From positions 1 to 64,000 of the forward strand of contig NZ_QLTA01000026.1 of the NCBI RefSeq assembly GCF_003269065.1: a DNA stretch of 64,000 nt, in the 5' to 3' direction. Below, one piece after another: positions 14,223-62,700 of the stretch. The DNA comes from Paracidovorax anthurii (GTDB lineage: Bacteria; Pseudomonadota; Gammaproteobacteria; Burkholderiales; Burkholderiaceae_C). How positions within the stretch are numbered: position 1 is the first letter of the stretch; the number at the start of each line of letters is the position of its first letter. The notes beneath the pieces are model-generated. The model searched no databases and was not told the origin of the DNA. It saw nothing but the letters and a program-made list of their open reading frames with translations. The translations under genes and the position numbers were made by a program.

Positions 14223-14399
14223 TTTTATCCACCCTCGATCGATGTTCACTGCTGGAGCCGCAAAGGGGGAAATCCCCGGCCCGTATGCCAATGCATCCGC
14301 AGCAAAACGAGAGTGTTGAGGAGAGACCCTTTGGATCAGTCGGGATTCCATTCCCCCTGTCGGCCGCATCAGCCATCGCGTCGAAACCCGATACGGGAC

Positions 14400-15326: not shown

Positions 15327-15395
15327 GGGCGGGCTTTCTTGGAGGGTGGCGAAGGGTTTACCCAAAGCGCCAGCGGCGAACGCGCCATGCAGCCC

Positions 15396-16331: not shown

Positions 16332-16453
16332 GCGGGTCTCCAGTCGTTGTGGATGCCCATGTCTTTCGCATGGCTCTTGACGGTGGGCATCTTATCAACG
16401 CAAATTGATGCTTGTAATCCATATTTTTATCATCAATCAATACCAATATTGAT
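16332..16453. promoter_or_regulatory. Divergent promoter region with dyad next to the SDR start
   Basis: This 122-bp stretch between the lactonase and SDR genes is AT-rich at its right end. ATCAAT-N6-ATTGAT (16436-16453) is a perfect 6-bp-arm dyad ending right at the SDR start codon. It could be an operator for the divergent pair. The dyad suggests repression by occlusion of the SDR initiation region, but no regulator can be assigned. No clear Shine-Dalgarno is visible for the SDR gene. Confidence 0.45.
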
Positions 16454-17260: not shown

Positions 17261-17315
17261 TCCCGACGGCCTTCGACGGGCTTGCAAGGGTTTGCCCCGG
17301 GCGCGAGGCCACAAG

Positions 17316-17331
17316 CAGTGCTCCAGCACTG
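17316..17331. terminator. Perfect hairpin between convergent genes
   Basis: CAGTGCT-CC-AGCACTG is a perfect 7-bp stem in the 114-bp gap between the converging SDR and LysR genes. It lacks a clear T tract on either side, so it is at best a weak bidirectional terminator. Confidence 0.35.
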
Positions 17332-17374
17332 AAAAGCGAAGCAACGCAGTTATCTTTGGGATGGCGAAGCCGCA

Positions 17375-18334: not shown

Positions 18335-18438
18335 GGGGTTTTCCAGAATGCAAGGATAGATATGTATTTTGTCTAGAAAACTATTGGATCGATACGAAAA
18401 TCATCCATAGACTTTGCCGCAACAACAGCAAAGGTCCC
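18335..18438. promoter_or_regulatory. LysR-operon divergent promoter/operator region
   Basis: This 104-bp AT-rich intergenic region separates the LysR gene from the catabolic operon. It contains ATAG...CTAT around the TTTTGTCTAGAAAA segment (18368-18381) and an interrupted dyad GGAT-N13-ATCC at 18386-18406, the size expected of LysR-type half-sites. The downstream gene has AAAGG five bases before its ATG. The exact operator is a suggestion. Confidence 0.45.
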
Positions 18439-40768: not shown

Positions 40769-40794
40769 AGCCGTAGACAAGAAGAAAGCACATC

Positions 40795-43508: not shown

Positions 43509-43520
43509 GCCCCTGACAAC

Positions 43521-45233
43521 ATGACTTCGATCATCAAAGCAATCCAAGTAGCGAATTTCAAAGGCTTCTCAGAGAAAGTTCGAATTGAAATCCGCCCTAT
43601 CACTTTGCTGTTTGGAGCCAACAGCGCCGGAAAGAGCAGCGTGCTACAGGGGCTGCAACTGGTGCGGGAGATCCTGGAGAGGGGTGATGCCAACGTCGAC
43701 CGCACGCGACAGGGAGGGGACACCATCGACCTCGGTGGCTTCCGCAACTTCGTACACAAGCGCGACCTTTCACGCGAGGTCACCCTCCGTGTCGAAATGG
43801 AACTTGGCGACGAAGCCATCCCGGAGTTCTTCGAGGATGCGATCGAAGATAGATCGGATGTCGATGCCGAGGTTTGGCGCTTCCATGAGACGCTGGATTT
43901 GGTTCGCAACCAAGTCCAGCGAGTGGCGGTGCAGCTGACGCTCAGCTGGAGCGAATTCCAGCAACGGGCAGTCGTGAGCGGCTACCAGGTCGACTTCAAT
44001 GACACTTGGTGCGTCGACGTCAAGACTGATGCCAGCGGCAGCAGGCCCCAACTCCGCCTTAACGCGAGCCACCCGATATTTTTTGCGGATGAGATCGAAG
44101 GCGATGCGTTGTTCAGTGAGCTTGCGGCATGGGCTCGTCCCGGCATGCCCGGCCATCTGTTTCGCGCCGAGCTTGGCATGTGCACAGACGAGTTGGAGGA
44201 AGGAGACATCAAGGAGCCGATTCCCAACTCAGTGCTGCTGGCAGCGTTGGAAGTCGTGCGCGGCTCATACGCCGACAGCCCAAATCCCGGCTACGCGACT
44301 TGGCTACGAGATTTCCAAGCCGCGCTCCCAGCCTTGGACAAGCCAATCTTGATCCCCGCGGGGCGGCCTGAGACCGCCTCAAATGTGTTCGTCCTCCAAG
44401 AGTTTTCGGCCTTCATGTCCTGGCTGCTGCTCGGCCCTGCACAACTCTTGCGCGATCAATTGCGCAAGTCACGCTACCTCGGCCCGCTGCGCCGCATTCC
44501 GCCGCGCGACTTTGACGTGGCCCTTAGCAAGACAGAGGCCGCTTGGTCGGACGGCATGGCAGCATGGCAGGCGCTGATGGCGGACCAAGGCAATTTGGCA
44601 AGCGCATGCGGTGACTGGATGCGTCACCCGCAGAAGCTAGCCACCGGGTACGGCGTCGAGCGAAATGTCGTCCAAGAGTTCGACGTCTCGGGGCCAGAGC
44701 CCAAGCCCTTGGGTAGAGAGCGGCAGCGCCTGGCACTGGTGGATGCAGACGGACAGCGCCATCTTCCGCAAGACGTCGGCGTGGGAATCTCCCAAGTCTT
44801 GCCGGTGGTTGTCGCCGCGCAGGACCGCTCTGCCAGCTTGGTGATCATCGAGCAACCCGAGCTGCATATCCATCCAGCGGTACAGGTCGGCTTGGGCGAC
44901 TTGTTCATCGACGGAGTACTGAACAAGGGCCTGTCGTTCCTGATTGAGACGCACAGCGAGCATCTGGTGATGCGCCTTCAGCGACGCCTGCGCGAGCAGA
45001 TGGCCGGCGAAGCGTCGCCAGAGACGGAGCCCCTGGAACCCAAAGACGTGAGCTTCGTCTACCTGGGTCGAGACCAGTCTGGGTGCGTCAGGGCATCTCA
45101 CATTGGGCTCACTGAGCAAGGCAAGTTCGATGCGCCCTGGCCGAACGGCTTCTTTGCCGAGCGTGCGGCAGAAGTGCTGCCGTCGGCCATGCGTGCTCAG
45201 CTCGAAGCGCGCCTCAAGGGAGCAGCAAAGTGA
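43521..45233 (+). CDS. AAA-family ATPase with DUF3696-like C-terminus
   Basis: 570 residues. It is an ABC/SMC-like ATPase of the OLD/RecF type: Walker A GANSAGKSS (32-40) after KAIQVANFKGF, a signature-like DVGVGISQVLPVV, Walker B LVIIEQPELHIHP with E444 as catalytic acid, and the H-loop ETHSEHL at 476-482. No TOPRIM nuclease is fused, and the C-terminus ends soon after like DUF3696 proteins. It starts 12 bp after hsdS and overlaps the next gene by 4 bases (GTGA). Such ATPases often act as sensors that unleash a paired effector in anti-phage modules; that role here is inferred from the coupling. Confidence 0.82.
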   Translation: MTSIIKAIQVANFKGFSEKVRIEIRPITLLFGANSAGKSSVLQGLQLVREILERGDANVDRTRQGGDTIDLGGFRNFVHKRDLSREVTLRVEMELGDEAIPEFFEDAIEDRSDVDAEVWRFHETLDLVRNQVQRVAVQLTLSWSEFQQRAVVSGYQVDFNDTWCVDVKTDASGSRPQLRLNASHPIFFADEIEGDALFSELAAWARPGMPGHLFRAELGMCTDELEEGDIKEPIPNSVLLAALEVVRGSYADSPNPGYATWLRDFQAALPALDKPILIPAGRPETASNVFVLQEFSAFMSWLLLGPAQLLRDQLRKSRYLGPLRRIPPRDFDVALSKTEAAWSDGMAAWQALMADQGNLASACGDWMRHPQKLATGYGVERNVVQEFDVSGPEPKPLGRERQRLALVDADGQRHLPQDVGVGISQVLPVVVAAQDRSASLVIIEQPELHIHPAVQVGLGDLFIDGVLNKGLSFLIETHSEHLVMRLQRRLREQMAGEASPETEPLEPKDVSFVYLGRDQSGCVRASHIGLTEQGKFDAPWPNGFFAERAAEVLPSAMRAQLEARLKGAAK

Positions 45234-47702: not shown

Positions 47703-49454
47703 ATGGCAGCAAAGACTGCACGCTTTCAAGTTGATTCCAGGTTGGCCCGGCTGCTGAGCCAGGAATATCCGTCGACGGAAAAGGCCCTCAAGGAACTGGT
47801 CGACAACGCCTGGGATGCAGACGCTGAGAACGTCTGGATTTCACTGCCGGCGCCGATGACCGATACGCCGATCGTCATCGCTGATGACGGCTCGGGCATG
47901 ACACGGGCCGAGCTCGAATCGCACTACCTGGCCATCGCCAAAGACCGGCGTGAGCACCGAGGCGAGCGAACGGCAGGCAAGCAGCGCTCAGTGAAGGGAC
48001 GCAAGGGCATCGGCAAGTTCGCGGGCCTCATGGCTGCAGCGGAAATGACACTCGAGACCCGCACACGCGGAACGCTCAGCCGCTTCACGCTCCGCATGAC
48101 GGATCTGGCCGGTGTCTTAGATATCGAGCACCTGCCCATCCAGATTGAGACCGAGCGCTGCGACCCTGACTCGCACGGCACGACCATCACGCTCCACTCC
48201 CTGCACGGTGAGCTTGCCTTCCCCGACGCCGGCAGGATGCGGCAAGTGCTGATCTTCGAGTACGGACGAGCAGCGGACTTCGCCGTTCACGTGGATGGAA
48301 AGCCGCTCGGCGTCGACGATGTGGCCGGAACCTACACCGACCAGAGCATGGAAGTCCCGGGGGTCGGCGCAGTCCAGTTGCGGTTCGCAATCGCTGACGA
48401 GCGGTCGGCGCAGCGGCAAGCCGGCATCGTGCTTCGAGTCGATGACAAGGTGGTGGGGAAGCCTTCGTTCTTCGGTCTTGAAGAGCGGGAGGACTTTCCG
48501 CAGAAGCTGAAATCCAAGCTCTACGGCGAGGTCCAGGCGGACGGCCTGCGTGACCACGTGACCGCCGGCTGGGACAGTGTGATCGAGAACAGCAGTTTGC
48601 TAGCCGCAGTCGCCGAACAGGTCCAGCCCATCCTGATCGCTGCATACAAGGAGCGATACAGCCGCGAGATCCAGCTGGCGCAAGCGCGTATCAACCGCGC
48701 GATCAAGGACAGACTGGCTGCGATGCCAGAGCATCGTCGCGAGTTCGCCGACAAGGCGGTGCGCCGCACTCTGGAGCGCTTCTATGGAGAAGAACCGAGC
48801 AAGCTGGAGCAGTACGTTCATGTGCTGCTCGACGCAATTGAGCAATCAGCGTACGGCATCGTCCTGTCACACATTCACGACGCCGCGCGGAAGGATGTGG
48901 TCGCCATCTCGGTTGCGCTGGACGAGTTCGGCATAGCTGACTTGGCAACCTTAGTTACACAGGCCAAGGCGCGCGCACAGTTTCTCGATGAGCTTGAGGA
49001 ACTTGCGCGCAATCCGACCACGCGCGAGGCAGAGATGCACAAGGCCATCGAGCGGAATCTTTGGATCTTGGGGCCGACGTACACCTTCTTCCGTTCCAAC
49101 CAGACGCTCAGGCGCACCGTAGAGGATGCCCTGAACCGAAAGTACACGGGGGACAAGGCGCAGGAGCGTCCGGATCTGCTGCTCAACGAAGACTTAAACG
49201 GCGCGTGCCTGTTGATCGAGTTCAAGCGCCCGTCGCATGCGCTAAATCACGACGACTACGTACAGGCGATCAGCTACCGGCACGAATTGCGAAAGCACAT
49301 GAACAAGCCCATCAAGGTGTTGTTGATGGGCGGTAGCCGATCTGGTGACTTTCCCAACGAGCGGCGAGAACCGGATGTGGAGGTGGCGACCTTTGCAGAT
49401 GCTATCGCGACCGCCCGCCGCGCACTCGATTGGCAGCTGTCCGTGCAGGCCTGA
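47703..49454 (+). CDS. GHKL ATPase fused to a PD-(D/E)xK-like nuclease domain
   Basis: 583 residues behind a good AGAGGAAG site. The N-terminal GHKL/Hsp90-MutL-type ATP-binding fold has the N box E31-LVDN-AWDAD, G1 DDGSGM at 61-66, and G2 GRKGIGKFAG at 99-108. A transducer-like middle follows. The C-terminal about 130 residues hold a nuclease-like core: FFRSN, D491 in RPDLLL and E506-F-K508 in LLIEFKRPSH, then YVQAISYRHEL. This is the D...ExK pattern seen in Shedu/DUF4263-like nucleases. MutL/MORC-type GHKL ATPases are known partners of restriction systems. It likely senses or clamps DNA with ATP and cuts it. It is the last clear gene of the hsd operon. Confidence 0.82.
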   Translation: MAAKTARFQVDSRLARLLSQEYPSTEKALKELVDNAWDADAENVWISLPAPMTDTPIVIADDGSGMTRAELESHYLAIAKDRREHRGERTAGKQRSVKGRKGIGKFAGLMAAAEMTLETRTRGTLSRFTLRMTDLAGVLDIEHLPIQIETERCDPDSHGTTITLHSLHGELAFPDAGRMRQVLIFEYGRAADFAVHVDGKPLGVDDVAGTYTDQSMEVPGVGAVQLRFAIADERSAQRQAGIVLRVDDKVVGKPSFFGLEEREDFPQKLKSKLYGEVQADGLRDHVTAGWDSVIENSSLLAAVAEQVQPILIAAYKERYSREIQLAQARINRAIKDRLAAMPEHRREFADKAVRRTLERFYGEEPSKLEQYVHVLLDAIEQSAYGIVLSHIHDAARKDVVAISVALDEFGIADLATLVTQAKARAQFLDELEELARNPTTREAEMHKAIERNLWILGPTYTFFRSNQTLRRTVEDALNRKYTGDKAQERPDLLLNEDLNGACLLIEFKRPSHALNHDDYVQAISYRHELRKHMNKPIKVLLMGGSRSGDFPNERREPDVEVATFADAIATARRALDWQLSVQA

Positions 49455-50090: not shown

Positions 50091-50106
50091 TGGCATGACT
50101 CTCGCA
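50091..50106 (+). promoter_or_regulatory. Sigma54-type promoter upstream of the DUF2130 operon
   Basis: TGGCATGACTCTCGCA, with GG 50092-50093 and GC 50104-50105 separated by 10 bases. The -24 block differs from TGGCACG by one base; the -12 block is TCGCA. The predicted start near 50117 gives a 27-base leader with GGAG before ATG 50144. Confidence 0.72.
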
Positions 50107-50143
50107 AAGAGTCAGGTATCGACAACCCTTCGGAGTGGAAACC

Positions 50144-51553
50144 ATGAACGACATCATCTGCCCGCATTGCGGCAAAGCCTTCAAGATCGACGATGCCGGA
50201 TACGCCGACATCCTGAAGCAAGTGCGCGACAGCGACTTCGAACACCAGTTGCACGAGCGCCTGGAGTTGGCTGAACGCGACAAGCAATCTGCCGTGCAAC
50301 TGGCCCGTGCCCAGATGACTGCCGAGCTGCAGAAACAGACGGCCGCTCGTGAATCCGAAATCCAAGCGCTCAAGGCAAAACTTCAAGCCGAGGAAGTGGC
50401 CCGGCAATTGGCCGTGACGCAGGCATTGACTGGCGTGGAAAAGCAGCGCGACGCTTTGGCGGGTGAGCTGGAGCGCGTTCGGCAGGAAAGCCTTTCGGCG
50501 AAGCAGATGGCCGAAGACAAGCTGGATCACGAGCTTCAGAAAGCTGCCGCCGAGAAGGACGCCCAGATCCAGGCCCTCAACGCCCGATTGGATGCAGCTG
50601 AATTGACGCAGACGCTGGCCATCACCGAGGCGCGCAGCGCTGTGGAGAAGGAGCGCGATGAACTGCGTATTAGTCTGGAGCGTGCGCGTCTGGACAAACA
50701 GCTTGCCGAACAGTCTCTCAGGGACCGTTATGAGGTCCAGATCAAGGACCGCGACGACGCCATTGAGCGACTGCGCGACATGAAGGCTCGGCTTTCCACC
50801 AAGATGGTGGGTGAAACCCTGGAACAGCACTGCGAGACCGAGTTCAATCGCATCCGCGCCACTGCGTTCCCGAGGGCCTACTTCGAGAAAGACAATGACG
50901 CCAGCAGTGGCAGCAAGGGCGACTACATCTTCCGCGACACGGACGAGGGGAGCGCCGAGATCGTCTCGATCATGTTCGAGATGAAAAACGAGAGCGACAC
51001 CACGGCGACCAAGAAGCGCAACGAGGATTTCCTGAAAGAGCTGGACAGAGACCGCATCGAGAAAGGCTGCGAGTACGCGGTGCTGGTGTCGCTACTGGAG
51101 CCCGAGAGCGAGCTTTACAACACCGGCATCGTGGACGTATTCCATCGCTACCCCAAGATGTACGTGGTGCGTCCGCAGTTCTTCATCCCCATCATCACGC
51201 TGCTGCGCAATGCGGCCATGAATTCGCTGAAGTACAAGGCCGAGCTCGCTCTGGTGAAGGCCCAGAACATCGACATCACGAACTTCGAGAATCAGCTCGA
51301 CAGCTTCAAGGACGCTTTTGCCAAGAACTACGACTTGGCGTCCCGGCGTTTCCAGACTGCGATTGACGAGATCGACAAGTCCATCGATCACCTGCAAAAG
51401 ACCAAGGACGCCTTGCTGGGAGCTGATCGCAACCTCCGCTTGGCCAACGACAAAGCGCAGGACGTGACCATCAAGAAGCTGACCAAGGGCAACCCAACCA
51501 TGGCGGCGAAGTTTGCGGAACTCAAGAATTCCGACGTCACTGGAATTGGCTGA
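50144..51553 (+). CDS. DUF2130-family protein with zinc-ribbon-like start and nuclease-like C-terminus
   Basis: 469 residues. ATG 50144 is preferred over GTG 50135 because GGAG lies eight bases before it. CPHCGKAF at the N-terminus looks like half of a zinc ribbon. Residues about 25-220 are a long charged coiled coil. The C-terminal domain (about 230-400) is DUF2130: [25 protein letters not shown], and [11 protein letters not shown], a D...ExK-like arrangement that suggests a restriction-endonuclease fold, then [13 protein letters not shown]2130 proteins are widespread but not well characterised. It is the first gene behind the second sigma54 promoter and so probably works with the two genes that follow. 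Confidence 0.82.
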
Positions 51554-51678
51554 TTGTGCGGCCCCGCGCTGCCTGACTTCATCAATAACATGAGGTTGGG
51601 GGACTCAGCTTGGCGCCAGCTGGTGCCGCTTATGCCAGAACGCCTTGCACGGCACTCAAACAAAGGGAGGAGACCTGA

Positions 51679-53337
51679 ATGGAAGTCTCGACGCACTGGG
51701 TTAAGCCACCAACTGCAATTGGTGGCCTCGACCACCTAGGGACACAAGGACCGTGTTTGGCAATTTACGCGCGGTTGCTGCCCGGAATCACGAACGTCAC
51801 CGACCGGGCTCGGTACTACTCGCTGTATCCGTGGGTTGTCTGGTCTTTCGACCAGCACTTTCCTACCGCCAACGCTGACATCTTTGTCGAATACTTTCGG
51901 CGAGCGGACTGCCTGTTCACCCTGATATCCGAGCGCCATGCGCGGCAGACCGATCATGAGGCCGAGCGACACGGCATTGCCATGGTTGGGCGCGTCCAAC
52001 TGCTCCAGGCCTTGGACAGGCTGGAAGGAGGTGAAGAACTGCGCCTTTCGACCTACACGGACCGAGCTGATGGCAACCCTCGGCGGTACTTCATGAACCG
52101 TCTTGGCGGGCTTGGCCAGTATTACGCCGGCACATTGGCTCAACTCGAGTTGATGGATCCGTCTGCAAGGCCATGGGTGAAGTTCACTATCGAGCGCGGT
52201 CAACCCATGGCGGAAGCAGTCGCAGCCGCGGTGCCCGGCGACCTGTTCTGGGGACTTGTCCAGTCTGACAGGGTAACGTTGGCTGACTTGGACGCCTTGT
52301 CTCACTTCTGTGCCTGCAGCATTTCCGCGGGGACGCAGGAGCACGAATCATTGACGGACATCTTCTTCGACCGCGAGAACGCCTATGGAGCGCTTGGCGA
52401 ACAACGGCGCCAGTCGCTCACGCTCATCCTGCACCTGGCCACAGCATTGCACGCACAAACAGGTGAAGACTTGACCGAACAGGTATTCCGAGCAGCAACT
52501 TACTCGAGCGTCTTGCCAGGTGCAGTCCAATGGAAGGTACCTCCCGCACTTGAAGAGACGCGAAGGGCATGGGCAATCTACGAGCGCAACGACCTTCTAT
52601 CCGTAGTCATGCAGGCCGTCTTCTCGGTCTGCTTGGATACGCTGACATCGCCCGCAGCAACTGATCAAAGGAGCCTGTCCAGCGTTGAAACGTTTGCTGC
52701 GGCTTTGGCAGCGAACGATGAGGCCAAGGCCTGCTATGCTGACCTCTCGGCAGACTCGTTCGGGACGCTGTGTGAGGTGCTCCGAGTGTCTGGGCCCGCC
52801 TTGACTGAATGGGAGTCTTCCAGTCACGAGTTTCAATTGGCTGCAGACCTGCAGAAGGATGCGACTTCGAATCCTGGCATTGGCTTGCAGTTGAGCCGGG
52901 CATTCCAAGCGCTCGCGCTACTGTCCGTCAGGGCGAGCGAAGTCGACCTGCCCTACGGATCACTGCCAATCGGTAGCGACGAGCTGCTGGACGCTCCTAT
53001 CAACCTAAAGTCGGCACAAGCGCGCTTCCAGGCCTGGAAATCGATGTCGCTCCAGCAGGTCGCTGAAGACCTAATTGCTTGGTGCATGAATACACACCTG
53101 CGCGTTGCATTGCGAAAACTGCGCCAGGGTGGGCAGTCGACGTTTCGCTTCCGACCCACTGAGCGAGGCTTGCAGTTGGTCGATATCCCTGAACCCGCCG
53201 CTACCACACCACGCTTCCGGCAAGCCGTTCAGATCTTGCGTGACATCGGCGTGCTGACAAGGGATGCCTCCAAGCTTGGAAGGCCGACTCGGCCGACCCT
53301 GCTTGGCACGTCTCTTCTGGAGGCATACGGTGGGTGA
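51679..53337 (+). CDS. Unrecognised 552-residue protein
   Basis: 552 residues from ATG 51679, preceded at some distance by GGGAGGAG. I recognise no domain. The N-terminus is distinctive (STHWVKPPTAIGGLDHLGTQ, then LPGITNVTDRARYYSLYPW) and may mark a family. The rest is mostly helical, with no membrane segment, no signal peptide and no nucleotide-binding motif. The last 8 bases overlap the next gene, which encodes a PLD-like protein, so the two are very likely a functional pair. A scaffold or sensor role for the PLD nuclease is a guess. A 125-bp gap separates it from DUF2130. Confidence 0.8.
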   Translation: MEVSTHWVKPPTAIGGLDHLGTQGPCLAIYARLLPGITNVTDRARYYSLYPWVVWSFDQHFPTANADIFVEYFRRADCLFTLISERHARQTDHEAERHGIAMVGRVQLLQALDRLEGGEELRLSTYTDRADGNPRRYFMNRLGGLGQYYAGTLAQLELMDPSARPWVKFTIERGQPMAEAVAAAVPGDLFWGLVQSDRVTLADLDALSHFCACSISAGTQEHESLTDIFFDRENAYGALGEQRRQSLTLILHLATALHAQTGEDLTEQVFRAATYSSVLPGAVQWKVPPALEETRRAWAIYERNDLLSVVMQAVFSVCLDTLTSPAATDQRSLSSVETFAAALAANDEAKACYADLSADSFGTLCEVLRVSGPALTEWESSSHEFQLAADLQKDATSNPGIGLQLSRAFQALALLSVRASEVDLPYGSLPIGSDELLDAPINLKSAQARFQAWKSMSLQQVAEDLIAWCMNTHLRVALRKLRQGGQSTFRFRPTERGLQLVDIPEPAATTPRFRQAVQILRDIGVLTRDASKLGRPTRPTLLGTSLLEAYGG

Positions 53338-55843
53338 GCCGATATCCCTTGTCGATGTGGTGAAGCGCGGTGGCTACGAAGCATCACTGATCACCACGTT
53401 CAACGCGACGTTGCCGTTCTATGAGGAGTTCGTGCTTCGCAGGCTCATGGCAGCAGGATCCCGCTACAACGTGGTGATGATGGATGCAGCGCAATGCGCG
53501 CAGGCATGGTCGAGCGAAGCAGCCAGACCCCGTCTCGCCGGACATGCCTACGCACTCCTTCCGATGAAGGTGCCGGGCGCATTCCATCCCAAGGTGTGCC
53601 TGCTCGCAGGACCTCGAAAGGCCTCCCTTCTGATCGGTAGTCACAACCTGACCCTCTCTGGCTTTGGCTACAACCGGGAAGTGACCAACTGGATTGACGT
53701 TGCCGGTACCAAGGATGCTGACGGGGTTGCCGCGTTGGCAGACACCTGGGCGCTATTGGAGACATGGATCAACCAGCAGGCACCTTATCTCCCGGACTCG
53801 CTGCTGGAGTCCGCCCGCGCGCTGGCCAAGTTCGTCGCGCCACTCACTCAGCGGATTTCAGCAGCGGGCAGATCCGACGTTCTAGGTCAGTCATTGTCAG
53901 GTCAGAGTCTCTTCGAGCAGTTGAAGCCCAGAGTTCCAGAGCGAGTCGAGCGCATCCTGATGATGGGCGCTTTCTTTGATGCTGAGTTCGGCTTGCTTCG
54001 CAGCCTTTCCGTCCAATGGCCGATGGCCGAGCTTGTTGCGCTCATTGACCCTGACTCGGTGCACTTGGGCAAGGGGCTAAACAACGTCAGTTGCCGCTTT
54101 GTGGACGCACGGTCGCTGTGGCCAGATCAGGCACCGCGCTACTTGCACGCGAAAGCCATCTACTTCGAGTCCGCGCAAGGGGATCTGTTCGTCTCTGGCA
54201 GCGCGAATCCCAGTCGACCGGCTTGGCTCGGTACCGCTACAAATGGGAACGTTGAGGCAGTGGTTGCGCGCGCCGGTTCAGCGGCCCGAGAGATCGCCGG
54301 CGCGATGGGACTCGCAAAGGCCTTTGGTCTCCCGCCCCTGAACCAGGCAGAGCTTGAGTCGGTGGCCGAACGAGGCCATAACGAGATGGTTCACCTTGCT
54401 GATGAGTTCGAGTCGGTTCGCGTCGCCATTGCCGACGCCGACGCGGAGTCAATAGCCTTCGACTACCCCAATCCAGAGCGCTTGACGTTGATGCACACGG
54501 AAGGCGCGAGTGCCGACGAACGCTGGGATGGATCACTGGAGATCGCAGGGCCGTCACGGGTTGCGATCAGAACTGAGGGGGCGCTTGGACGCATTCGGTC
54601 TGTGGTGTTCCGCGTTGGCGACGAGAGGATGCTTCGCGCCATCGTTCATCACCCTGCCAGCTTGAGTGGCTTGGCGCACACCAAGCGCCAGGCCATCCTG
54701 CGTGAGGCGCTCGGAACTCTGGGCTCTGGTGAGGGTGATGTTGCCCGCTTGATCGCTTCGGTCGAGAAGGTCATCTTCTCAGATGACATCCATGCCGATT
54801 TGACAACGCTTTCGCGCACTGGGCGGAACCTGACCGACGATGCAACTACGCTTGCCCGGCCTGCCAGCCTCGGCGTGCATGTGGCTGATATGCCGAAGCA
54901 GAGGAAGAAGCTGCGCTTGCTGAAGTCGGGAGATTTGGCCTATTTGCTAGACGTGCTAATCCGACGGCTTGGAATTGACCTTGAGAGCCAGCCGGGCACA
55001 ACAGATTCGCGCGGGCGAACTGAAGAGGAGTCGGTCAATCAAGATGATGACGACTTGCCCGAGGCGCCTGCACAAGACCCCTCCGGACCCAGTGACGCAG
55101 AAATTGCCGAGATTGTCCGTCGCAAAGCCAGAACCTTGGTAAGGCGCATGACAAAGCAGCTTATTGCGGCCTGCCAGGACCAGCGAAAGGCCCAGAGCGC
55201 TATCGTGCAACTCGTCGCTGTATTGGGGCTGATCCGAGAGCTAAGACGCCTGCGGCTTCACCCCCGATGGCGCATCACCCCTAGCCTCGTTGACGAGACC
55301 GATAGACGAGATCTGCTTGATGGTGCGATGTCGGCACTCTTCGGGCCTGAATCCAGGCTGCTGCAAGTCGTGAGCGATCAGGCGGACGAGCCCATCGAGG
55401 AAGTGGGTTTCCTTCGAACGCTTTTGCTTTGGCTGGCCTGGGATTTGGGCGAAGAGCTGACGGAACGAATCGGCCCTCTCGTGGAGGAAGAAGACGCCAT
55501 TCGTGCCGTGCGAGCAAATGCAGTGCTGTACGAGTTGCTGCCAGCGGCGGCGTCGGACCCGGACGAGGCCGCCGAGTTGGAGCGGAGTGTTCGTATGACG
55601 TTGGTTCCAACTGGCACGGAAGGCGCTCGAGCGACGAACTGGATGCGACGCCACCTTGCAGTCGGCTTGACCGTGAGGGGCATGAGCCCAGAAACGCTAA
55701 GGATCAAGCCCGGTCTTGCCCGCGGGATGCTAGCGATGGTGCCAAAGTCCGCTCCTGCACGCCTTCGGGTGGTGAGTGCCGTAGCTGGTCCAGAGGTCAC
55801 GCTGTGGGACTTTGATGGGACCAGGACGTTCCTCGCCCAGTAG
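53330..55843 (+). CDS. Phospholipase-D-like protein with two HKD motifs, probable nuclease
   Basis: 837 residues from GTG 53330, chosen because GGAGG lies six bases upstream and it overlaps the previous stop. Two PLD motifs are visible in the first third: FHPKVCLLAGPRKASLLIGS then HNLT near 85-110, and LHAKAIYFES ... FVSGSANPS near 270-295. Two HxK motifs in one chain form one active site. An acidic linker (about 555-590, EEESVNQDDDDLPEA) precedes a helical C-terminal domain with RKARTLVRRMTKQLIAACQ and DRRDLLDGAMSALFG. PLD-like proteins in defence loci usually cut nucleic acid. With DUF2130 and the unknown partner it forms a three-gene sigma54 operon. Confidence 0.82.
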   Translation: MGEPISLVDVVKRGGYEASLITTFNATLPFYEEFVLRRLMAAGSRYNVVMMDAAQCAQAWSSEAARPRLAGHAYALLPMKVPGAFHPKVCLLAGPRKASLLIGSHNLTLSGFGYNREVTNWIDVAGTKDADGVAALADTWALLETWINQQAPYLPDSLLESARALAKFVAPLTQRISAAGRSDVLGQSLSGQSLFEQLKPRVPERVERILMMGAFFDAEFGLLRSLSVQWPMAELVALIDPDSVHLGKGLNNVSCRFVDARSLWPDQAPRYLHAKAIYFESAQGDLFVSGSANPSRPAWLGTATNGNVEAVVARAGSAAREIAGAMGLAKAFGLPPLNQAELESVAERGHNEMVHLADEFESVRVAIADADAESIAFDYPNPERLTLMHTEGASADERWDGSLEIAGPSRVAIRTEGALGRIRSVVFRVGDERMLRAIVHHPASLSGLAHTKRQAILREALGTLGSGEGDVARLIASVEKVIFSDDIHADLTTLSRTGRNLTDDATTLARPASLGVHVADMPKQRKKLRLLKSGDLAYLLDVLIRRLGIDLESQPGTTDSRGRTEEESVNQDDDDLPEAPAQDPSGPSDAEIAEIVRRKARTLVRRMTKQLIAACQDQRKAQSAIVQLVAVLGLIRELRRLRLHPRWRITPSLVDETDRRDLLDGAMSALFGPESRLLQVVSDQADEPIEEVGFLRTLLLWLAWDLGEELTERIGPLVEEEDAIRAVRANAVLYELLPAAASDPDEAAELERSVRMTLVPTGTEGARATNWMRRHLAVGLTVRGMSPETLRIKPGLARGMLAMVPKSAPARLRVVSAVAGPEVTLWDFDGTRTFLAQ

Positions 55844-55953: not shown

Positions 55954-55966
55954 CAAGTGATTGATT
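55954..55966. promoter_or_regulatory. IHF site upstream of operon 3
   Basis: CAAGTGATTGATT is a full match to the IHF consensus YAANNNNTTGATW. Its TTGATT begins 35 bp before the sigma54 GG, the same distance as in operon 2, and the next bases (CATATAGG against TATATGGA) are also alike. Confidence 0.6.
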
Positions 55967-55994
55967 CATATAGGACCGACAGTTCGGCCAGGGT

Positions 55995-56010
55995 GGGCAC
56001 GCTTCTCGCG
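55995..56010 (+). promoter_or_regulatory. Sigma54-type promoter upstream of the DUF4258/TerY-P operon
   Basis: GGGCACGCTTCTCGCG, with GG 55996-55997 and GC 56008-56009 separated by 10 bases. The -12 block is again TCGC. The predicted start near 56021 gives a 24-base leader that contains GGAGG before ATG 56045. Confidence 0.7.
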
Positions 56011-56044
56011 AAGTACTGGTCACAGCCAACCTCTGGAGGTCCTA

Positions 56045-56392
56045 ATGAACCAGCAAAACCACAGCGCACAACGCGAAGTGAATCTGCCGCGATTGACGCT
56101 TCACGCCAAGGTGCGCATGCAGCAACGCGGCATCCGCGACGACGACATCGAACAAGTCGTTCGATTTGGGCGCCGAATTCATGCAAAGGGCCTGACCTAC
56201 TACGTGGTCGGTCGCAAAGAGGTCGAGCGGCAAGCCCTGGTCGGAAAGGACATCGCCAAGCTGGAGGGCCTTCAGGTGCTCGTGGAGGCAACTGAGGGCA
56301 TGGTCGTGACAACGTACCGCAGCAAAGACTTTCATTCCATCCGCAGCACGCCGAGTGACAGGTGCCGCCGCTATTCACACGATCAACACTAG
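56045..56392 (+). CDS. DUF4258-family small protein
   Basis: 115 residues from ATG 56045, with GGAGG six bases upstream. The core LTLHAKVRMQQRGIRDDDIEQVVRFG, then RIHAKGLTYYVVGRKEV, matches DUF4258, a small alpha/beta family whose conserved H-x-x-x-R-M-x-x-R-G segment resembles some toxin or RNase-like folds. The biochemical role is not established. It is the first gene behind the third sigma54 promoter, 33 bp before the vWA gene, so it belongs to the TerY-P operon. Confidence 0.75.
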   Translation: MNQQNHSAQREVNLPRLTLHAKVRMQQRGIRDDDIEQVVRFGRRIHAKGLTYYVVGRKEVERQALVGKDIAKLEGLQVLVEATEGMVVTTYRSKDFHSIRSTPSDRCRRYSHDQH

Positions 56393-56425
56393 GTACTGCA
56401 CAGTAAGCAACAGGGAGCAAACAAC

Positions 56426-57220
56426 ATGGCACTTGCCAAATTCCGCGAAGACATCGTGTCTCGCTTCCATCAAGCCACGGTGATTCGCGCCAAAGAGCAT
56501 GACGCTTTGCTGGCGACCGAGGCTGAGCCCAAGGGCGCGCCAACCAAGCTGAAAGGCTTTGCCGCACCGGAACCTCGGCCATTGCCGGTGATCGTGCTGG
56601 CAGACACCAGCGGCAGCATGTCGGCGAACGGAAAGATCGACGCATTGAACGAGGCAATCAAGACCATGATCCTGAGCTTTGGGCGGGAAAGTCGCCTGCG
56701 TGCGGAGATCCAAGTGGGTCTGATCACGTTTGGGGGTGATGCCGCTCAAGCCCATGTGCCCTTGGTAGGCGCCAACCGAATCGAAGGTGTGGAGGCGCTC
56801 GGCGCACAGGGGCGCACGCCCATGGGTTCGGCTTTCGCGATGGCCCGCCAGTGGCTGGAAGACAAGGACATGGTCCCGTCGCGGGCATACAGGCCGGTCT
56901 TGGTGCTGGTGTCCGACGGAGCGCCCACGGACGACTGGCAAGGCCCCTTGCAGTCTTTGAAGGCCAGTGAACGGGGGCAGAAGGCCACACGCTTCGCCCT
57001 GGCGATTGGTGCAGATGCCGACCGGGCCATGCTGCGCCAGTTCACCAATGACCTGGAGGCGCCAGTGTTCGAAGCCGACGGCGCACGCGACATCGTCAAG
57101 TTCTTCCGTGCGGTCACGATGAGCGTGGTGGCTCGCTCCACAAGTGGATCGCCCAACACAGCCCTGCCCCTGAACGTGGGCGAAGATCTCGAGGATGACC
57201 TCGATCTGGACGCGCTCTAA
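56426..57220 (+). CDS. TerY-like von Willebrand factor A domain protein
   Basis: 264 residues. The vWA fold carries a full MIDAS metal site: D60-x-S62-x-S64 (ADTSGSMS), T131 (GRTPMGSA) and D164 (LVSDGAPTDD). The tail is very acidic (GEDLEDDLDLDAL). This is the TerY-like member of the TerY-P triad, which in tellurite-resistance-related systems appears with a PP2C phosphatase and a zinc-ribbon kinase. Both follow here, the phosphatase starting at the base after this stop codon. It likely serves as a metal-dependent scaffold whose contacts are set by phosphorylation. Confidence 0.88.
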   Translation: MALAKFREDIVSRFHQATVIRAKEHDALLATEAEPKGAPTKLKGFAAPEPRPLPVIVLADTSGSMSANGKIDALNEAIKTMILSFGRESRLRAEIQVGLITFGGDAAQAHVPLVGANRIEGVEALGAQGRTPMGSAFAMARQWLEDKDMVPSRAYRPVLVLVSDGAPTDDWQGPLQSLKASERGQKATRFALAIGADADRAMLRQFTNDLEAPVFEADGARDIVKFFRAVTMSVVARSTSGSPNTALPLNVGEDLEDDLDLDAL

Positions 57221-57946
57221 ATGCTGAGCGCCGTCGGTACGTCTGTGATCGGCCCAGCCCATGCCGAAGCGGACGAGTCAAGCCAAGACGCTTGCGGAGT
57301 CCGCGGCTGGCGTGGCGGATGGATTGCCTGCGTTGCGGATGGGCTGGGCAGCCGGTCCCAGAGTGGTATCGGGGCGCGGTACGCGGTGCGTGCGGCGCAC
57401 CAGGTGCTGCGCCGCGAGCCGAATCACCAACAGGTGATGCGGGAACTGACGACGCGCATCTACCGAGCCTGGCTGCGTGCCGTAGGGCCGGACCGAGCCG
57501 ACGCCGCAGCCACCACACTGCTCATCGCAGCCTGTACCGCCCAGGGGCAGGTGCGGACGTGGCAGTTGGGCGACGGCATGGTTTTGGTCCGATCGCAAGG
57601 CCAAGTGCGAGTGTTGACGCCGCCGAGAAGCGGCTTCGGCAATGAAACGCGCGCTATGGGCATCGATAAAGCCTGGAGCGCATGGTCTACACATGAGTTT
57701 GTACTGAGCCAGCCGGGTGACCAGGTGATCCTGATGACAGATGGCGTGGCCGATGACCTGGACGATCGGTCCTTGCACGCCTTTCCGCAGGCACTGCATC
57801 GCCACCTGTCTGGTCTGAGCCGCCGAAAGGCCCGACGGTGGCTGACTCACGAACTGACGCATTGGGGCACGCCAGGCCATTCAGACGACAAGAGCCTGGC
57901 GCTGATATTCAAGAAGGGGAGATGCCATGGCAACGGCTGGGCGTGA
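57221..57946 (+). CDS. PP2C-family protein phosphatase
   Basis: 241 residues. Metal-binding acids are in place: D23 (SSQDACG), D40-G41 (CVADGLGSRSQSG), D118 in QLGDG, D174-G175 (LMTDGVADD) and D222-D223 (HSDDKSLA). It removes phosphate from Ser/Thr with two metal ions. It is the phosphatase of a TerY-P triad. It overlaps the kinase gene by 20 bases, so kinase and phosphatase are probably made together and act on the same target, perhaps the vWA protein or the helicase. Confidence 0.9.
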   Translation: MLSAVGTSVIGPAHAEADESSQDACGVRGWRGGWIACVADGLGSRSQSGIGARYAVRAAHQVLRREPNHQQVMRELTTRIYRAWLRAVGPDRADAAATTLLIAACTAQGQVRTWQLGDGMVLVRSQGQVRVLTPPRSGFGNETRAMGIDKAWSAWSTHEFVLSQPGDQVILMTDGVADDLDDRSLHAFPQALHRHLSGLSRRKARRWLTHELTHWGTPGHSDDKSLALIFKKGRCHGNGWA

Positions 57947-59360
57947 ACCAAACCAAACGCACGAGCCCGTGCGCGAACAGAAGGTCTTCGACGACCGTGG
58001 GGGCGAGTACATATTGGGCGAGCGCCTTTCCAAAGGCGGACAGGGGACTATCGTCCGCATCAAGGGGAACGCCCGCCAGATCGTGAAGCTGGCTAACGCC
58101 AAAGCGAGCGACCCAGCCACATTGGCGTGGGCGCAGCAGGTGGCGCGAATCCGTTACCTGCCGGTTCAGGATCACGGCCTTCCTGTGGTGATGCCGTTGG
58201 CCTATATCAACAAACCACGGCCTGGCTACGTCATGGAGCTGATGGAGGGCTTGGTGCCGCTTGAGTCGCTCATGACGGAGTTCGACGAGGCCATGCGAGA
58301 AGGGCACGAGCTGCAGGGCTTCGTGCAGTCGGGTGGCCTGGGGCGCCGCCTTGCCCTGCTGGCGCAACTCGCCCGAGTGCTCGCCTCATTGCACGGCTTA
58401 GGTATTGCGCATGGCGATCTTTCGCCTAGGAACATCTTTGTCTCCAGCACACACACCCATTCCCAGGTGTGGCTCATTGACGTGGACAACCTTTGCTACG
58501 CCGTGCGCAACAGCAGCCTGCAGATCTACACGCCGGACTACGGTGCACCCGAGCTGCTGCGAGGAGACATGGGCGTCAGCACCTACACGGATATTTGGAG
58601 CTTTGCGGTCATTGCCTTCCAGTTGCTAACGCACCTGCACCCCCTTAAGAGCGGCATGCTGATCGATGACGACGCCGAGTTGGAAGCGGAGGCCTTGAAA
58701 GGTGGATATCCGTGGATCGATCACCCTGACGACGACCAGAATCGATCGGAGTCGGGCTTGGATCGGGCCCTCGTGTGCACGCCGGATTTGCAGCGCCTGT
58801 TCGACCAGTGCTTCCGCCAAGGTTTGAACGACCCGGCCGAGCGCCCCGTGATGGCCGAGTGGGCAGAGGCGTTCGAGGCTGCCGCAGCGATACAGATCCG
58901 TTGCGATCACCAAGAGCACTGCTGTGGCGGCACGTTCTATTGGAACCCAGCGCGCCGTTGCCCATTCTGTGCACAGGTCGCACCAGAGGATCACCAGGTT
59001 TTGCTCCGCCACTTTGTGGTGGCCGCCAAAGAAGACTTGCCCGAGAACGCAAAACCAGTGGACCGGTTGATCGCTTCAGGTTGGCAACAGGTGCTCAACG
59101 TCGGGCGCGGCGAGCTTCGCCTTGCGCCGCCAGGCAGTGCCGAGCATGCCCGAGCCGAGCCATTTATCGGGTTCAGTTTGGCGGGACGGCAGCTCTCATT
59201 GATCCCTAACGGCGGCATGCCTCTCGCTCTGCAATGGCGTGGCGCCCGCTTGGCCCAGCCGCTGCGGGCACACCATGACCTGCCTCGTAGCGGGCAGACT
59301 TACCTCCTCCATGTCGGCGACCGTCGCGCCACGCACGAGGCTTGGGGCTTTGAGTGGTGA
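57927..59360 (+). CDS. Ser/Thr protein kinase with C-terminal zinc ribbon (TerY-P triad)
   Basis: 477 residues. Kinase landmarks: glycine loop SKGGQGTIV (36-43), ATP-binding K54 (QIVKLA), catalytic loop HGDLSPRN (162-169) with D164, metal-binding D185 in LIDVDN (DFG replaced by DVD), and YGAPELL (205-211). At about 335-355 CDHQEHCC ... CPFC forms a zinc ribbon, followed by a beta-rich C-terminal domain of about 115 residues. A short kinase with a C-terminal zinc ribbon is the defining kinase of TerY-P triads. No membrane segment is present, so it acts in the cytoplasm. Confidence 0.9.
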   Translation: MATAGREPNQTHEPVREQKVFDDRGGEYILGERLSKGGQGTIVRIKGNARQIVKLANAKASDPATLAWAQQVARIRYLPVQDHGLPVVMPLAYINKPRPGYVMELMEGLVPLESLMTEFDEAMREGHELQGFVQSGGLGRRLALLAQLARVLASLHGLGIAHGDLSPRNIFVSSTHTHSQVWLIDVDNLCYAVRNSSLQIYTPDYGAPELLRGDMGVSTYTDIWSFAVIAFQLLTHLHPLKSGMLIDDDAELEAEALKGGYPWIDHPDDDQNRSESGLDRALVCTPDLQRLFDQCFRQGLNDPAERPVMAEWAEAFEAAAAIQIRCDHQEHCCGGTFYWNPARRCPFCAQVAPEDHQVLLRHFVVAAKEDLPENAKPVDRLIASGWQQVLNVGRGELRLAPPGSAEHARAEPFIGFSLAGRQLSLIPNGGMPLALQWRGARLAQPLRAHHDLPRSGQTYLLHVGDRRATHEAWGFEW

Positions 59361-59364
59361 GACG

Positions 59365-62300
59365 ATGAAGCTGAGCGAATCACCTTTTCTCTCATCCGAG
59401 GTCCTCACAGCAGGGGTCGGTGACGGGTCGGCACCAGCCTCCGCTTGGACGGCGGGCGCTTCGGCCTTGCTGAGCGCAGAAGCCGACGCATGGATCCTGA
59501 CCCAGGGGCAGAACTTGGCCTACCTGGAGCTCACATCTGGCTCCAAGGACCTGGATCAACGCGCCACGAACCCCGAGACCCGATGGGTGCTGCAGGACGC
59601 CCGGAAGGGTCAGGTCAGGATACGCTACTTCACGCCCCAGAAGACGCTGGCGCTGCCAGGGCTAGACATCCTCATCGACACCCGCGCTGTAGACCAAATG
59701 CGGCAATCGAGGCACATCGATTCGGATGATATCGCCGTGGCCGCCGCGTGGTTGAGCGAGGAGTTCGTCTGCAGCGATCCGCTGGATGGCGCCTGCATGG
59801 TGTTCTTGGCAATCTATGGATCGGATCGGAAGGGCCAAGTGCAGTTGGTCGGTAGGCGTTTCGCCTTGGACCTTCGCGAGGACGCGCAGGGCGCGCTTTG
59901 GTTCGAACGGCTGGCCCGACGCCCGAGGTCAGTGGAGCAACCGTTCACGCTGCTTTTGGCACAGGTTCGAATCACGGATGCAGCTGCCGATGTGAAGCCT
60001 GAGGGGGCCCGCCAGGCTGACACGTTGCGAGCCGCCGCGACGACGCCGGGTGGCTATCTGGACCTGTGGCGACTCTATGGGCAACGTGAGTGGGACCGCA
60101 CCCTTCGTCGGGGCGCCCAGATCCAAGCGGTGCAGTACACCGGTGTGGTGCCGGTCAGCGCCGAGGGCGGGGGCTGGATCCTGCGGGGCGATCCGGCCCT
60201 GTTGCAGGCCTTCTGGAAGCGTTGGCAAGAGGAGACAGATGGCTCGGAACTGGCCGAGGTGGGCGAGACACCGCCAGACTGGAGTGTCGAGCGCGATCTG
60301 GAGGCGCCCGTGAGCAGGAAGAGGTCACCGATCAAGGGCACGATTTCTCTGGGCCAGGGCGAACTTGTACTCGACACCCAGGGCCGTGAGCCCCCGTTCC
60401 CTGGCTATGTGTACCTCTCCTTGGCCGGGCACCGGACACAGCATCTCCGTCGGATTCGTGCACGCCAAAGCATCGAGGGCGGGTATGGAGTGCCCGGCCT
60501 GAGTGCTTTGCTGCTGGACATCCCTCTCCCTCGGGTAAGGGCCTCAACACAACAACCCCTCACCCGCCACGTCCGCGAGACCTTTCATCAGGGTCGTCCG
60601 ACGGAAAGGCAGATTGAGGCCTTGGATGTAGCCCTTAACACACCAGACGTGGCGCTCATCATTGGCCCGCCAGGTACGGGCAAGACTCAGGTGATCGCAG
60701 CACTGGAGCGTCGGCTGTCGGAGTTGAACGAAGGACAGGTCATTGCACAGGAGGTGTTGATCTCCAGCTTCCAGCACGACGCCGTCGAGAACGCGCTCGG
60801 CAGGTCCCGCGTCTATGGACTGCCGGCGATCAAGGTGGGAGGCCGGCGAGACCACGCCGGTGAGGATCCGCTGGCGGTATGGATCCACGAACAGGAAGCT
60901 GCCATCAGCGGAGTTCTGACCGAGTTGAAGCAAGCGCATCCGCACTACCACGCCTTCTCAGACTTACAGACCCTTACACGCAACCTGCTCATGTTGGGGT
61001 CCCCGCCAGAGCGCCGGGCAGCCGATCTTGACGCACTCGCAGGGCGGCTGGACGAGGTTGAGTGGCATGGCCAGATTCGGATGACTTACGAGTGGCGTCA
61101 GCGCTGGAGCAACCTGCGGGCCAAGGGCGTCGGTGTTGAGGGCGGCGCGACGGTTCCTGCTGAACGCAGGCTGGAGCTTCGGCGGACCGTACGCGCACTG
61201 CGCACGGACGCTGTGTCCTTCATGGACGACGGTCCAGAGCGCGCATCGAGTTTGCTCAACAAGGCTTCGAGCTATCCGGGCTGGCTGCAGTCTGAGGAAC
61301 TGGCCACGCTTGAGGAAGCTGAGTTGGCCCTTGAGGCTGACGAGATGTTGCTACAGGCTCTGGAGAGTCTGCAGATGCGGCTCCTCGACCGTCTGATGGA
61401 CGAGCGAAGGTCGCTGGCTCAACGCAATCGGCTTCCTGATGAGTTAAGGGACTTGCTGAAAGAACTTCAAGCTCAGCTTGCGAGAGCAGTGGTCAACTCC
61501 GACTGGGGCTTGGTTGCAGCCATAGAGCGGTACCAGGAGGCGCTGGAGGTTCAACCTCGGCGAGTCCAGCAAGCTGTGGAGACCTACAGCAGTGTCGTTG
61601 GAGCCACCTGCCAGCAAGCGGTCAGTCGACAGATGGCGCTGCTCAAAGATGGGAGCGAAGACGCCATTTCCGGGCTACGATTCGGCAGCGTGGTGGTTGA
61701 TGAGGCGGCCCGTGCGAACCCGCTGGACCTGTTCATCCCGATGGCTCTAGCTAGGCGTAGGGTTGTTCTGGTAGGTGATCCACGGCAGTTGCCTCATCTG
61801 CTGGACGCTGAGATCGAGGAAGAGATCCGAACAGAACGTGGCGACCAAGTGGCGAGCGCCACCTACCAGCAAAGCTTGTTTGAAAGACTGTGGCGGCAGT
61901 TTGAGCGCCGTAAGTCCATCGATGGGATCAACCGTGTGGTGATGCTGGACCAGCAATTCCGTATGCATCCCAGGCTGGGCGACTTTGTCAGCAAGCACTT
62001 TTATGAGAAGGCGGGCCTCGGGCGCGTCCACTCGGGAAGACCAGCGTCGGACTTCACACTCACCTTGCCTGACTTCGGGCGCGCAGTCGCTGCTTGGATG
62101 GATGTGCCGGCGTCAGAGGGATCGGAAGGGCGTCCATCTGCAGGAAGCCGTACCCGTGTTCGAGATGCAGAGGCCAAGCGGGTCGCGTTGCTGGTGAAGC
62201 GCCTACTCCAACAACTGCCGGAGGACGCCAGCATCGGGGTCATCACCTTCTACTCGGGCCAGCGGGACGCCATCTGCAAAGCCTTGAGCAGTGGCCAACA

Positions 62301-62700
62301 GCCGGTGATGAAGTGGGTCGATGGCGTCTGGCGGCCCCGTGAGTCCTTTGCTCAACTGCCCAACGGTGGCGAGCGGTTCCGCGTTGGGACAGTTGACGCC
62401 TTTCAGGGCAAGGAATTCGACGTCGTTTTGCTCTCTACTGTTCGTTCAAACGCACGGCAGGTTGAAATACCTTCGCCAGAAGCCGAGGCGGCAGAGCGCG
62501 ATCGCTTTGAATTGCAGGCTAGCAGCCGCTATGGCCACTTGCGCACGCCGAATCGCCTCAATGTTGCGATGAGCCGCCAGCGCAGAATGCTCATCGCGGT
62601 GGGTGACCGCGCCATGTTTGAAGACCCCATTGCAGAGTCGTGCGTGCCCGAAATGCATGCGTTCCTCGCCTTCTGTGACGAGGAGGCGCGCCGTGGCTGA
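59365..62700 (+). CDS. UPF1-like superfamily 1 helicase/ATPase
   Basis: 1,111 residues from ATG 59365, five bases after the kinase stop. The first about 400 residues are unrecognised. Then: motif Q/I PTERQIEALDVAL and GPPGTGKT at 434-441, a helical insert of about 250 residues, Walker B VVVDEAAR (D779), VLVGDPRQLPHL as motif III, QQFRMHP from 863, TVDAFQGKEFDVVLLS as motif V, and RLNVAMSRQRRMLI from about 1064 as motif VI. It is a DNA or RNA helicase of the UPF1/DNA2/SMUBP branch. Its position after the TerY-P triad suggests that its activity is phospho-regulated. No nuclease motif is visible in this chain. Confidence 0.9.
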   Translation: MKLSESPFLSSEVLTAGVGDGSAPASAWTAGASALLSAEADAWILTQGQNLAYLELTSGSKDLDQRATNPETRWVLQDARKGQVRIRYFTPQKTLALPGLDILIDTRAVDQMRQSRHIDSDDIAVAAAWLSEEFVCSDPLDGACMVFLAIYGSDRKGQVQLVGRRFALDLREDAQGALWFERLARRPRSVEQPFTLLLAQVRITDAAADVKPEGARQADTLRAAATTPGGYLDLWRLYGQREWDRTLRRGAQIQAVQYTGVVPVSAEGGGWILRGDPALLQAFWKRWQEETDGSELAEVGETPPDWSVERDLEAPVSRKRSPIKGTISLGQGELVLDTQGREPPFPGYVYLSLAGHRTQHLRRIRARQSIEGGYGVPGLSALLLDIPLPRVRASTQQPLTRHVRETFHQGRPTERQIEALDVALNTPDVALIIGPPGTGKTQVIAALERRLSELNEGQVIAQEVLISSFQHDAVENALGRSRVYGLPAIKVGGRRDHAGEDPLAVWIHEQEAAISGVLTELKQAHPHYHAFSDLQTLTRNLLMLGSPPERRAADLDALAGRLDEVEWHGQIRMTYEWRQRWSNLRAKGVGVEGGATVPAERRLELRRTVRALRTDAVSFMDDGPERASSLLNKASSYPGWLQSEELATLEEAELALEADEMLLQALESLQMRLLDRLMDERRSLAQRNRLPDELRDLLKELQAQLARAVVNSDWGLVAAIERYQEALEVQPRRVQQAVETYSSVVGATCQQAVSRQMALLKDGSEDAISGLRFGSVVVDEAARANPLDLFIPMALARRRVVLVGDPRQLPHLLDAEIEEEIRTERGDQVASATYQQSLFERLWRQFERRKSIDGINRVVMLDQQFRMHPRLGDFVSKHFYEKAGLGRVHSGRPASDFTLTLPDFGRAVAAWMDVPASEGSEGRPSAGSRTRVRDAEAKRVALLVKRLLQQLPEDASIGVITFYSGQRDAICKALSSGQQPVMKWVDGVWRPRESFAQLPNGGERFRVGTVDAFQGKEFDVVLLSTVRSNARQVEIPSPEAEAAERDRFELQASSRYGHLRTPNRLNVAMSRQRRMLIAVGDRAMFEDPIAESCVPEMHAFLAFCDEEARRG

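Follow-up and report, generated by a model that had tools for sequence, protein, structure and literature searches.

The Azaca system, whose original paper is reportedly that of Millman et al. from 2022, combines ZacA, ZacB and the helicase ZacC, and in the four Azaca loci in our data these are encoded by overlapping genes (ZacA about 390 amino acids (aa), ZacB 613-711 aa, ZacC 1044-1129 aa). Among enzymes of the phospholipase D (PLD) fold, BfiI and R.NgoAVII are described in PMC4267653 as dimers in which two chains together make up a single active site, and the R-proteins of CglI and NgoAVII as needing their N-protein ATPase to cut DNA; the SauUSI active site is likewise described, in PMC7913695, as built from two protomers. 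Here we analyse a 64,000-nucleotide stretch of Paracidovorax anthurii DNA (assembly GCF_003269065.1, contig NZ_QLTA01000026.1, positions 1 to 64,000 of the forward strand; hereafter the window), which carries two overlapping genes, A and B, of which B encodes a two-lobed PLD-fold enzyme. A reading made from the sequence alone (hereafter the sequence-only reading) had joined these genes to an upstream DUF2130 gene in one operon behind its own sigma-54 promoter. We found that the real unit is the overlapping pair A+B, not three genes.

To define this unit, we scanned genome contigs with a four-member A alignment and kept 80 of 92 loci; B was recognised next to A in 75 of these 80, so that the co-occurrence elsewhere that the sequence-only reading had proposed as a check is found far beyond chance. 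The five loci with no recognised B hold fragments of A, which lie at or near a contig end in L069, L072, L073 and L099 and amount to a short piece in L101. With start codons chosen by a script, the A-to-B spacing was -4 in 50 of the 75 loci and -1 in 14, and all 75 fell between -14 and +17. These counts exclude L119, L120, L003 (two in-frame stops) and L004 (weak), and our alignments A4 and A5 comprise 69 and 65 of the 80 named loci, respectively, each with the window added and with fragments and some near-duplicates omitted. Distances among A proteins and among B proteins correlate closely (r=0.988 over 66 pairs), which indicates that the two genes are inherited together, not that their products touch. 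Plasmids carry the same arrangement: tblastn of A returned 11 records (4 conjugative, 4 mobilizable), and in all seven records examined the product of the gene after A, 789-846 aa long, aligns with B. A search with B matched 27 plasmid records, 20 of them outside the A list, and each of the nine examined among those 20 (two Streptomyces, Miltoncostaea, Prevotella, Rhizobium, Novosphingobium, Roseomonas, Sphingopyxis and the archaeon Halorussus) has an A-profile match beside B (E between 9e-187 and 7e-7, with 18 proteins searched; best of four negative controls, 0.21), with the order reversed (B then A) in Rhizobium and Novosphingobium and the A gene annotated as two pieces in Roseomonas.

The pair occurs in 1 of 17 examined genomes of the window's genus and is therefore accessory. 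In a sample of 398 genomes of the window's phylum, A lies beside B in 6, the window's own counted, and a strong ZacA match is present in 4 genomes of a like-drawn sample, which puts the pair at roughly the frequency of Azaca. In IMG/VR, two loci were matched by alignment A3 and none by the window's A protein as query. Two of the excluded loci hold divergent relatives of A: L119 (8393-11789, minus strand), where an upstream open reading frame (ORF) retains only the GSxN...NxE stretch of a PLD half-site (B-profile 3.4e-6, weak), and L120 (8527-10101, minus strand), which adjoins a tyrosine integrase and in which B was not found.

In the window, the genes and their parts lie as follows:

51679..53337, plus strand: gene A, an ORF of 552 aa; a distant ZacA/DUF6361-like protein, weakly so by sequence
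51665..51672, plus strand: Shine-Dalgarno-like GGGAGGAG, 6 bases ahead of the A start codon, read directly from the sequence
51724..51834, plus strand: signature stretch of A, residues 16-52, with invariant columns in alignments A1 and A4; aligned to ZacA by hhalign (probability 28%)
52087..52224, plus strand: possible winged-helix element of A, residues about 137-182, suggested by Pfam HTH_45 matches
53203..53331, plus strand: C-terminal conserved stretch of A, possibly a second winged helix judging by its sequence pattern (invariant T509, P511, R512, D522)
53330..55843, plus strand: gene B, 837 aa, GTG start, in a frame open from 53264; two-lobed PLD fold, ZacB homologue
53330..54379, plus strand: pseudo-dimeric PLD catalytic part of B, residues 1-350 (Foldseek, VIA-align)
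53585..53680, plus strand: first half-site of B, H86-x-K88...S104-x-N106...N115-x-E117, conserved in 65-66 of 66 rows
54146..54256, plus strand: second half-site of B, H273-x-K275...G290-S-x-N293...N307-x-E309, conserved in 65-66 of 66 rows
50135-51553, plus strand: ORF of the DUF2130 gene, with an ATG available at 50144 (Pfam DUF2130 2.4e-92)

The sequence-only reading had thus placed the three plus-strand frames correctly in the ORF listing, and rightly named the first as DUF2130 and the third as PLD-like (Pfam PLDc_2 3.2e-07). Its view of the 552-residue protein as unrecognised also holds in the library copies that we used, the window's A having no family match, ZacA and DUF6361 included, in Pfam (E≤1), PADLOC (2023; E≤5) or NCBIfam (E≤0.1). 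The 8-base overlap of A and B stands provided that B starts at GTG 53330, a start picked from homologues and supported by the closest of them, L005, whose spacing is also -8.

B holds two HKD-like half-sites, as the sequence-only reading had proposed in calling it a twin-HKD protein; judged by the canonical spacing of that motif, neither has an aspartate at the canonical place. Within the 66 rows of the B alignment, K88, S104, N106, N115, E117, H273, G290, S291, N293, N307 and E309 never vary; H86 and K275 are kept in 65. The spacing of the first half-site is fixed in all 66 rows (18 from K to N, 11 from N to E), and that of the second varies (K to N 18 in 47 rows and 19 in 19 rows; N to E 14-18). 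The first half-site aligns gap-free to the restriction enzyme BfiI (2c1l; E 0.0037, HMMER with the 66-row profile), which was the best match among PDB sequences, and carries HxK, SxN and E at the BfiI spacing; the second keeps these residues at a slightly different spacing. An 8-row B alignment gave no PLD match among PDB sequences. B resembles BfiI, NgoAVII, CglI and SauUSI in its aspartate-free HxK...SxN...NxE pattern, aligned without gaps to BfiI, and BfiI, NgoAVII and SauUSI are all matched by its model in Foldseek. It differs from BfiI, R.NgoAVII and SauUSI in holding both half-sites within one chain, and its partner is A, no helicase partner having been found. Pfam gave no B3 match to B at E≤1, the C-terminal part of B being poorly modelled. 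B also has weak profile matches to two PLD proteins from defence systems, DISARM DrmC and Dpd DpdK (models of only 61-265 positions, E 3e-6 to 0.03), whose partners are others than A.

The closest named relative is ZacB, to which B is clearly homologous on the profile evidence, if distantly (PADLOC 2.2e-16; hhalign probability 98.6, E 9.2e-16). A may be a distant relative of ZacA (DUF6361), as weaker matches suggest: at E≤1, PADLOC ZacA recognises 57 of 70 A members (best 3.5e-7) and DUF6361 recognises 5 of 70 (best 0.014), and a ZacA search of 398 genomes, which returned four strong loci, also matched two A proteins at about 1e-4. Like Azaca, the pair has overlapping genes with A ahead of B, a homologue of ZacB, PLD half-sites and, weakly, the N-terminal ZacA signature. 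It differs in lacking ZacC, in the length of A (552 aa in the window and mostly 500-550 in the family vs about 390 in ZacA) and of B (837 aa, about 760-885 in the family, vs about 610-710 in ZacB), in that neither the DUF6361 nor the ZacA model recognises the window's A, and in the position of B on the other side of the tree, where a 100/99 branch separates four ZacB from 79 B proteins (the tree is unrooted and some branches are long). No ZacC-profile match was found within the window at E≤1e-3. A four-member ZacC profile matches five pair loci (L011, L042, L053, L063, L081), with E-values of 3e-7 to 3e-11 that set them far apart from true ZacC, and in L042 the matching helicase lies directly after B. 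Given the 100/99 branch, the lack of a fixed ZacC and the weak link of A to ZacA, we regard the pair as a module related to Azaca, not as Azaca itself. The suggestion of the sequence-only reading that no named system has this composition is therefore only partly right: none of the libraries searched names the pair, but B, and weakly A, are related to Azaca. In the literature on Azaca and PLD-nuclease systems we found no description of the pair in the accessible portions of the texts, which include PMC12278908, PMC10952713, PMC12458937 and PMC12839542, and other names may be in use elsewhere.

For A, AlphaFold gives a helical and fairly confident model (mean predicted local distance difference test (pLDDT) 81, predicted template modelling score (pTM) 0.87). 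Comparisons of this protein yielded little: the best Foldseek match in the PDB was unconvincing (E 0.28), the best in BFVD had E 0.13, VIA-align reached Z 6.7 with transporter helices (a range that the tool calls a common arrangement), and a profile search of PDB sequences with alignment A1 gave a best E of 0.71. This absence of a fold match does not show that A has a new fold. Pfam HTH_45 matches 4 of 70 A members (best 1.5e-5), and in member L089 it covers residues 138-169 at E 0.008, below the cut-off. Because of these few HTH_45 matches and the lack of a convincing fold match, contact of A with DNA is a reasoned guess.

What the computation shows is the pairing, the intact catalytic residues, the PLD fold, the homology of B to ZacB and the lack of any constant third gene. 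From this we propose, at about an even chance of being right, that A and B make up a two-gene defence module directed at DNA, which descends from a common ancestor with ZacA-ZacB and acts without ZacC or a methyltransferase of its own, A gating and B cutting. In this model, each B chain would supply one composite BfiI-like phosphodiesterase site from the two HxK/N/E half-sites of a single polypeptide. A, its obligate partner, would be produced in matching amounts by translational coupling and would form a complex with B. We infer that A recognises or gates, probably touching DNA through its winged-helix-like parts, and that it would keep B inactive until phage DNA, plasmid DNA or a DNA intermediate is met, upon which B would cut DNA. 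Most loci have no type I methylase seed nearby, and if no other methylase serves the pair, this would point to conditional activation rather than site protection.

The surroundings of the pair hold defence genes more often than do control regions. We compared 50 test loci of at least 18 kb (45 from genome contigs, four near-duplicates having been removed, and five further regions) with 33 controls (26 that were long enough among the 27 of 40 regions yielding DNA, and seven others; filtered by length and number). Selected defence seeds occur in 16/50 pair loci vs 2/33 control regions (p=0.006), and type I restriction-modification genes in 8/50 vs 0/33 (p=0.019), which bears out the enrichment in defence islands that the sequence-only reading had proposed to look for; however, some of the seeds were chosen from the neighbourhoods of the pair itself, a bias towards enrichment, and the controls belong to the window's phylum, whereas Bacteroidota are among the test loci, so that the size of this enrichment is not reliable.

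These imperfections are among several points that weigh against our proposal, and 34 of the 50 pair loci have no defence seed at all within about 9 kb. Phage records gave no A match with two queries. The window's A does not match PADLOC ZacA even at E≤5, its hhalign alignment to ZacA is weak (probability 28%, E 6e-4, 79 columns of the N-terminal stretch), and the A profile, which scores 1.2e-4 against the ZacA of L109 (itself DUF6361 at 7.2e-81), scores 0.11 against that of L112, near a negative control at 0.21. The winged-helix reading of A is based on few weak matches, and B is poorly modelled past about residue 480. Finally, structural comparison does not single out nucleases, since vaccinia F13 and polyphosphate kinase outrank BfiI in Foldseek, and VIA-align Z fails to separate nucleases from lipid-acting PLDs.

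The pair could instead be an accessory of type I restriction-modification, B being an extra nuclease that uses HsdM-HsdS recognition and A an adapter. In three Bacteroidota loci (L009 1436-15284, L090 2081-16472, L093 31-13534) the pair sits between hsdM/hsdS and hsdR, the gaps in L090 being no longer than 27 bases; the genes there run WYL-like, N6-methylase, 388 aa, HsdM, 373 aa (HsdS by place), 171 aa, A, B, HsdR, and L009 shares with it the upstream N6-methylase gene and WYL regulator. Type I genes also lie near the pair in the window and in L007, L031 (one hsdR fragment), L033, L038, L040, L047, L083, L085 and L118. However, 42 of the 50 long loci have no type I seed match, and the neighbours in L010, L032 and L042 are Zorya, RtcR/VWA or SNF2 genes, which makes this explanation unlikely. 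The immediate neighbours in general are diverse: among 118 of the 125 listed, ResIII accounts for 5, Helicase_C for 4 and HSDR_N for 3, and no family exceeds 5.

A second alternative, that B is a Tdp1-like 3'-end-processing phosphodiesterase which clears protein or other adducts from DNA ends (as a repair function or to counter phage terminal proteins), A being a targeting subunit, draws on the AlphaFold model of B, which is confident mainly over residues 1-350 (mean pLDDT 66). Tdp1, like B a one-chain two-lobed PLD protein and one that also lacks the aspartate, is the best Foldseek match (2.2e-9), followed by vaccinia F13 and polyphosphate kinase, then SauUSI (7.8e-5), BfiI (1.5e-4) and NgoAVII (6.4e-4), and Tdp1 appears in the sequence search as well (E 0.57). 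Yet BfiI is the better match by sequence, identity to Tdp1 is about 11-13%, and B differs in its adjacent partner A and about 480 extra C-terminal residues. VIA-align, in which B reaches Z about 18-22 with many two-lobed PLD enzymes, lipid- and nucleic-acid-acting alike, places Tdp1 (about 18-20) level with or under the others (up to 22), and the patchy, partly plasmid-borne spread fits conflict more than housekeeping repair; we judge this alternative distinctly improbable. The same VIA-align list is headed by a phospholipase D, with phosphatidylserine synthases among the best, so that B might, on its fold, be a phospholipase effector which harms membranes once A senses infection (abortive infection). 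This we hold more improbable still, as the K+18-to-N spacing without aspartate matches the BfiI pattern and lipid-acting PLDs are absent among the sequence matches listed. That the pair is a decayed Azaca, a ZacABC operon minus zacC, would suit the homology of B to ZacB, the weaker A-ZacA link, the shared gene order and a PADLOC ZacC match in 2 of 118 immediate neighbours (best 9e-14), but is scarcely credible, the pair being intact and conserved across phyla, all 79 B proteins lying across the 100/99 branch from the four ZacB and the five ZacC-profile matches being far from true ZacC.

The remaining claims of the sequence-only reading concern what lies upstream of the pair. DUF2130 was rejected as a component: its gene ends 125 bases before A, none of the 50 long pair loci has a DUF2130 seed match, and none of six other pair-bearing genomes has any match, so the three genes do not form one unit. 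A DUF2130 match is present in one genome of the same genus in which A is absent, and in 2 of 5,426 Escherichia coli genomes DNA resembling DUF2130 occurs where the remainder of the query is missing (in 'near' mode only). Because DUF2130 is not part of the module, the 'two different nuclease-like parts' ascribed to it are unsupported, and nothing in the analysis showed a nuclease-like character of DUF2130; the candidate module survives as its second and third genes, which are conserved together with a nuclease-type active site. The promoter does not belong to the pair either. The sigma-54-like site at 50091 has 2 mismatches and lies ahead of DUF2130 rather than the pair, a relaxed sigma-54 pattern fitted to it matches the window 2 times vs 1.16 expected, and in none of 87 loci do the 250 bases ahead of A contain a site with two mismatches or fewer (chance expectation about 0.01 per locus), so sigma-54 control was rejected as a property of the pair. 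The 50091 site could still serve DUF2130, because an RtcR-like activator is encoded at 35752. A scan for sigma-70 gave about as many promoter-like sites as chance would (2 vs 1.5 expected), and an Rfam scan of the window from 45 to 63 kb gave no family above the gathering score.

The window's pair lies downstream of a type I restriction-modification cluster with this RtcR-like activator and upstream of a DUF4258/VWA/PP2C/kinase/superfamily 1 (SF1) helicase cluster. The former starts with an RtcR-like CARF/sigma-54 activator (35752-37284; PADLOC RtcR_PspF2 7e-198) directly upstream of hsdR, with a one-mismatch sigma-54-like site at 37292 in the 34-base gap between them, and continues with hsdR, hsdM, hsdS and an AAA ATPase (37319-45233). 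A GHKL ATPase (47703-49454) shows partial similarity to BbrUII-type restriction enzymes and a C-terminal SduA_C (Shedu)-like match (1.5e-4, below the cut-off). The downstream row (55961-62700) is loosely TerY-P-like, and its helicase matches MkoA. Pseudacidovorax L032, in which the pair is followed by RtcR and then by a row of DUF4258, VWA, PP2C, kinase and helicase genes (13404-19537), is a second genome with these neighbours, and its B belongs to another clade. Zorya genes adjoin the pair in L010, and in L132 (393-2449) homologues of A and B lie near 7-cyano-7-deazaguanine synthase and TatD genes, which also occur in Qat defence systems.

Returning to A+B as a DNA-targeting defence module, a broader version is possible, though we consider it doubtful: the pair may be the minimal core of a ZacAB superfamily spread across bacteria and archaea, a restriction-like nuclease needing no ATP-driven helicase and no methylase of its own, in which A would be a new DNA-recognition and gating fold, the Azaca branch would have gained or kept a helicase, and the three Bacteroidota hsd insertions would represent borrowed type I recognition. 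A has no model in the library copies used despite its Azaca-like frequency. If the pair is a defence system, it would raise the question of how a nuclease that has neither methylase nor helicase dedicated to it spares its own host, and it may reveal what the ZacA-ZacB core does within Azaca.

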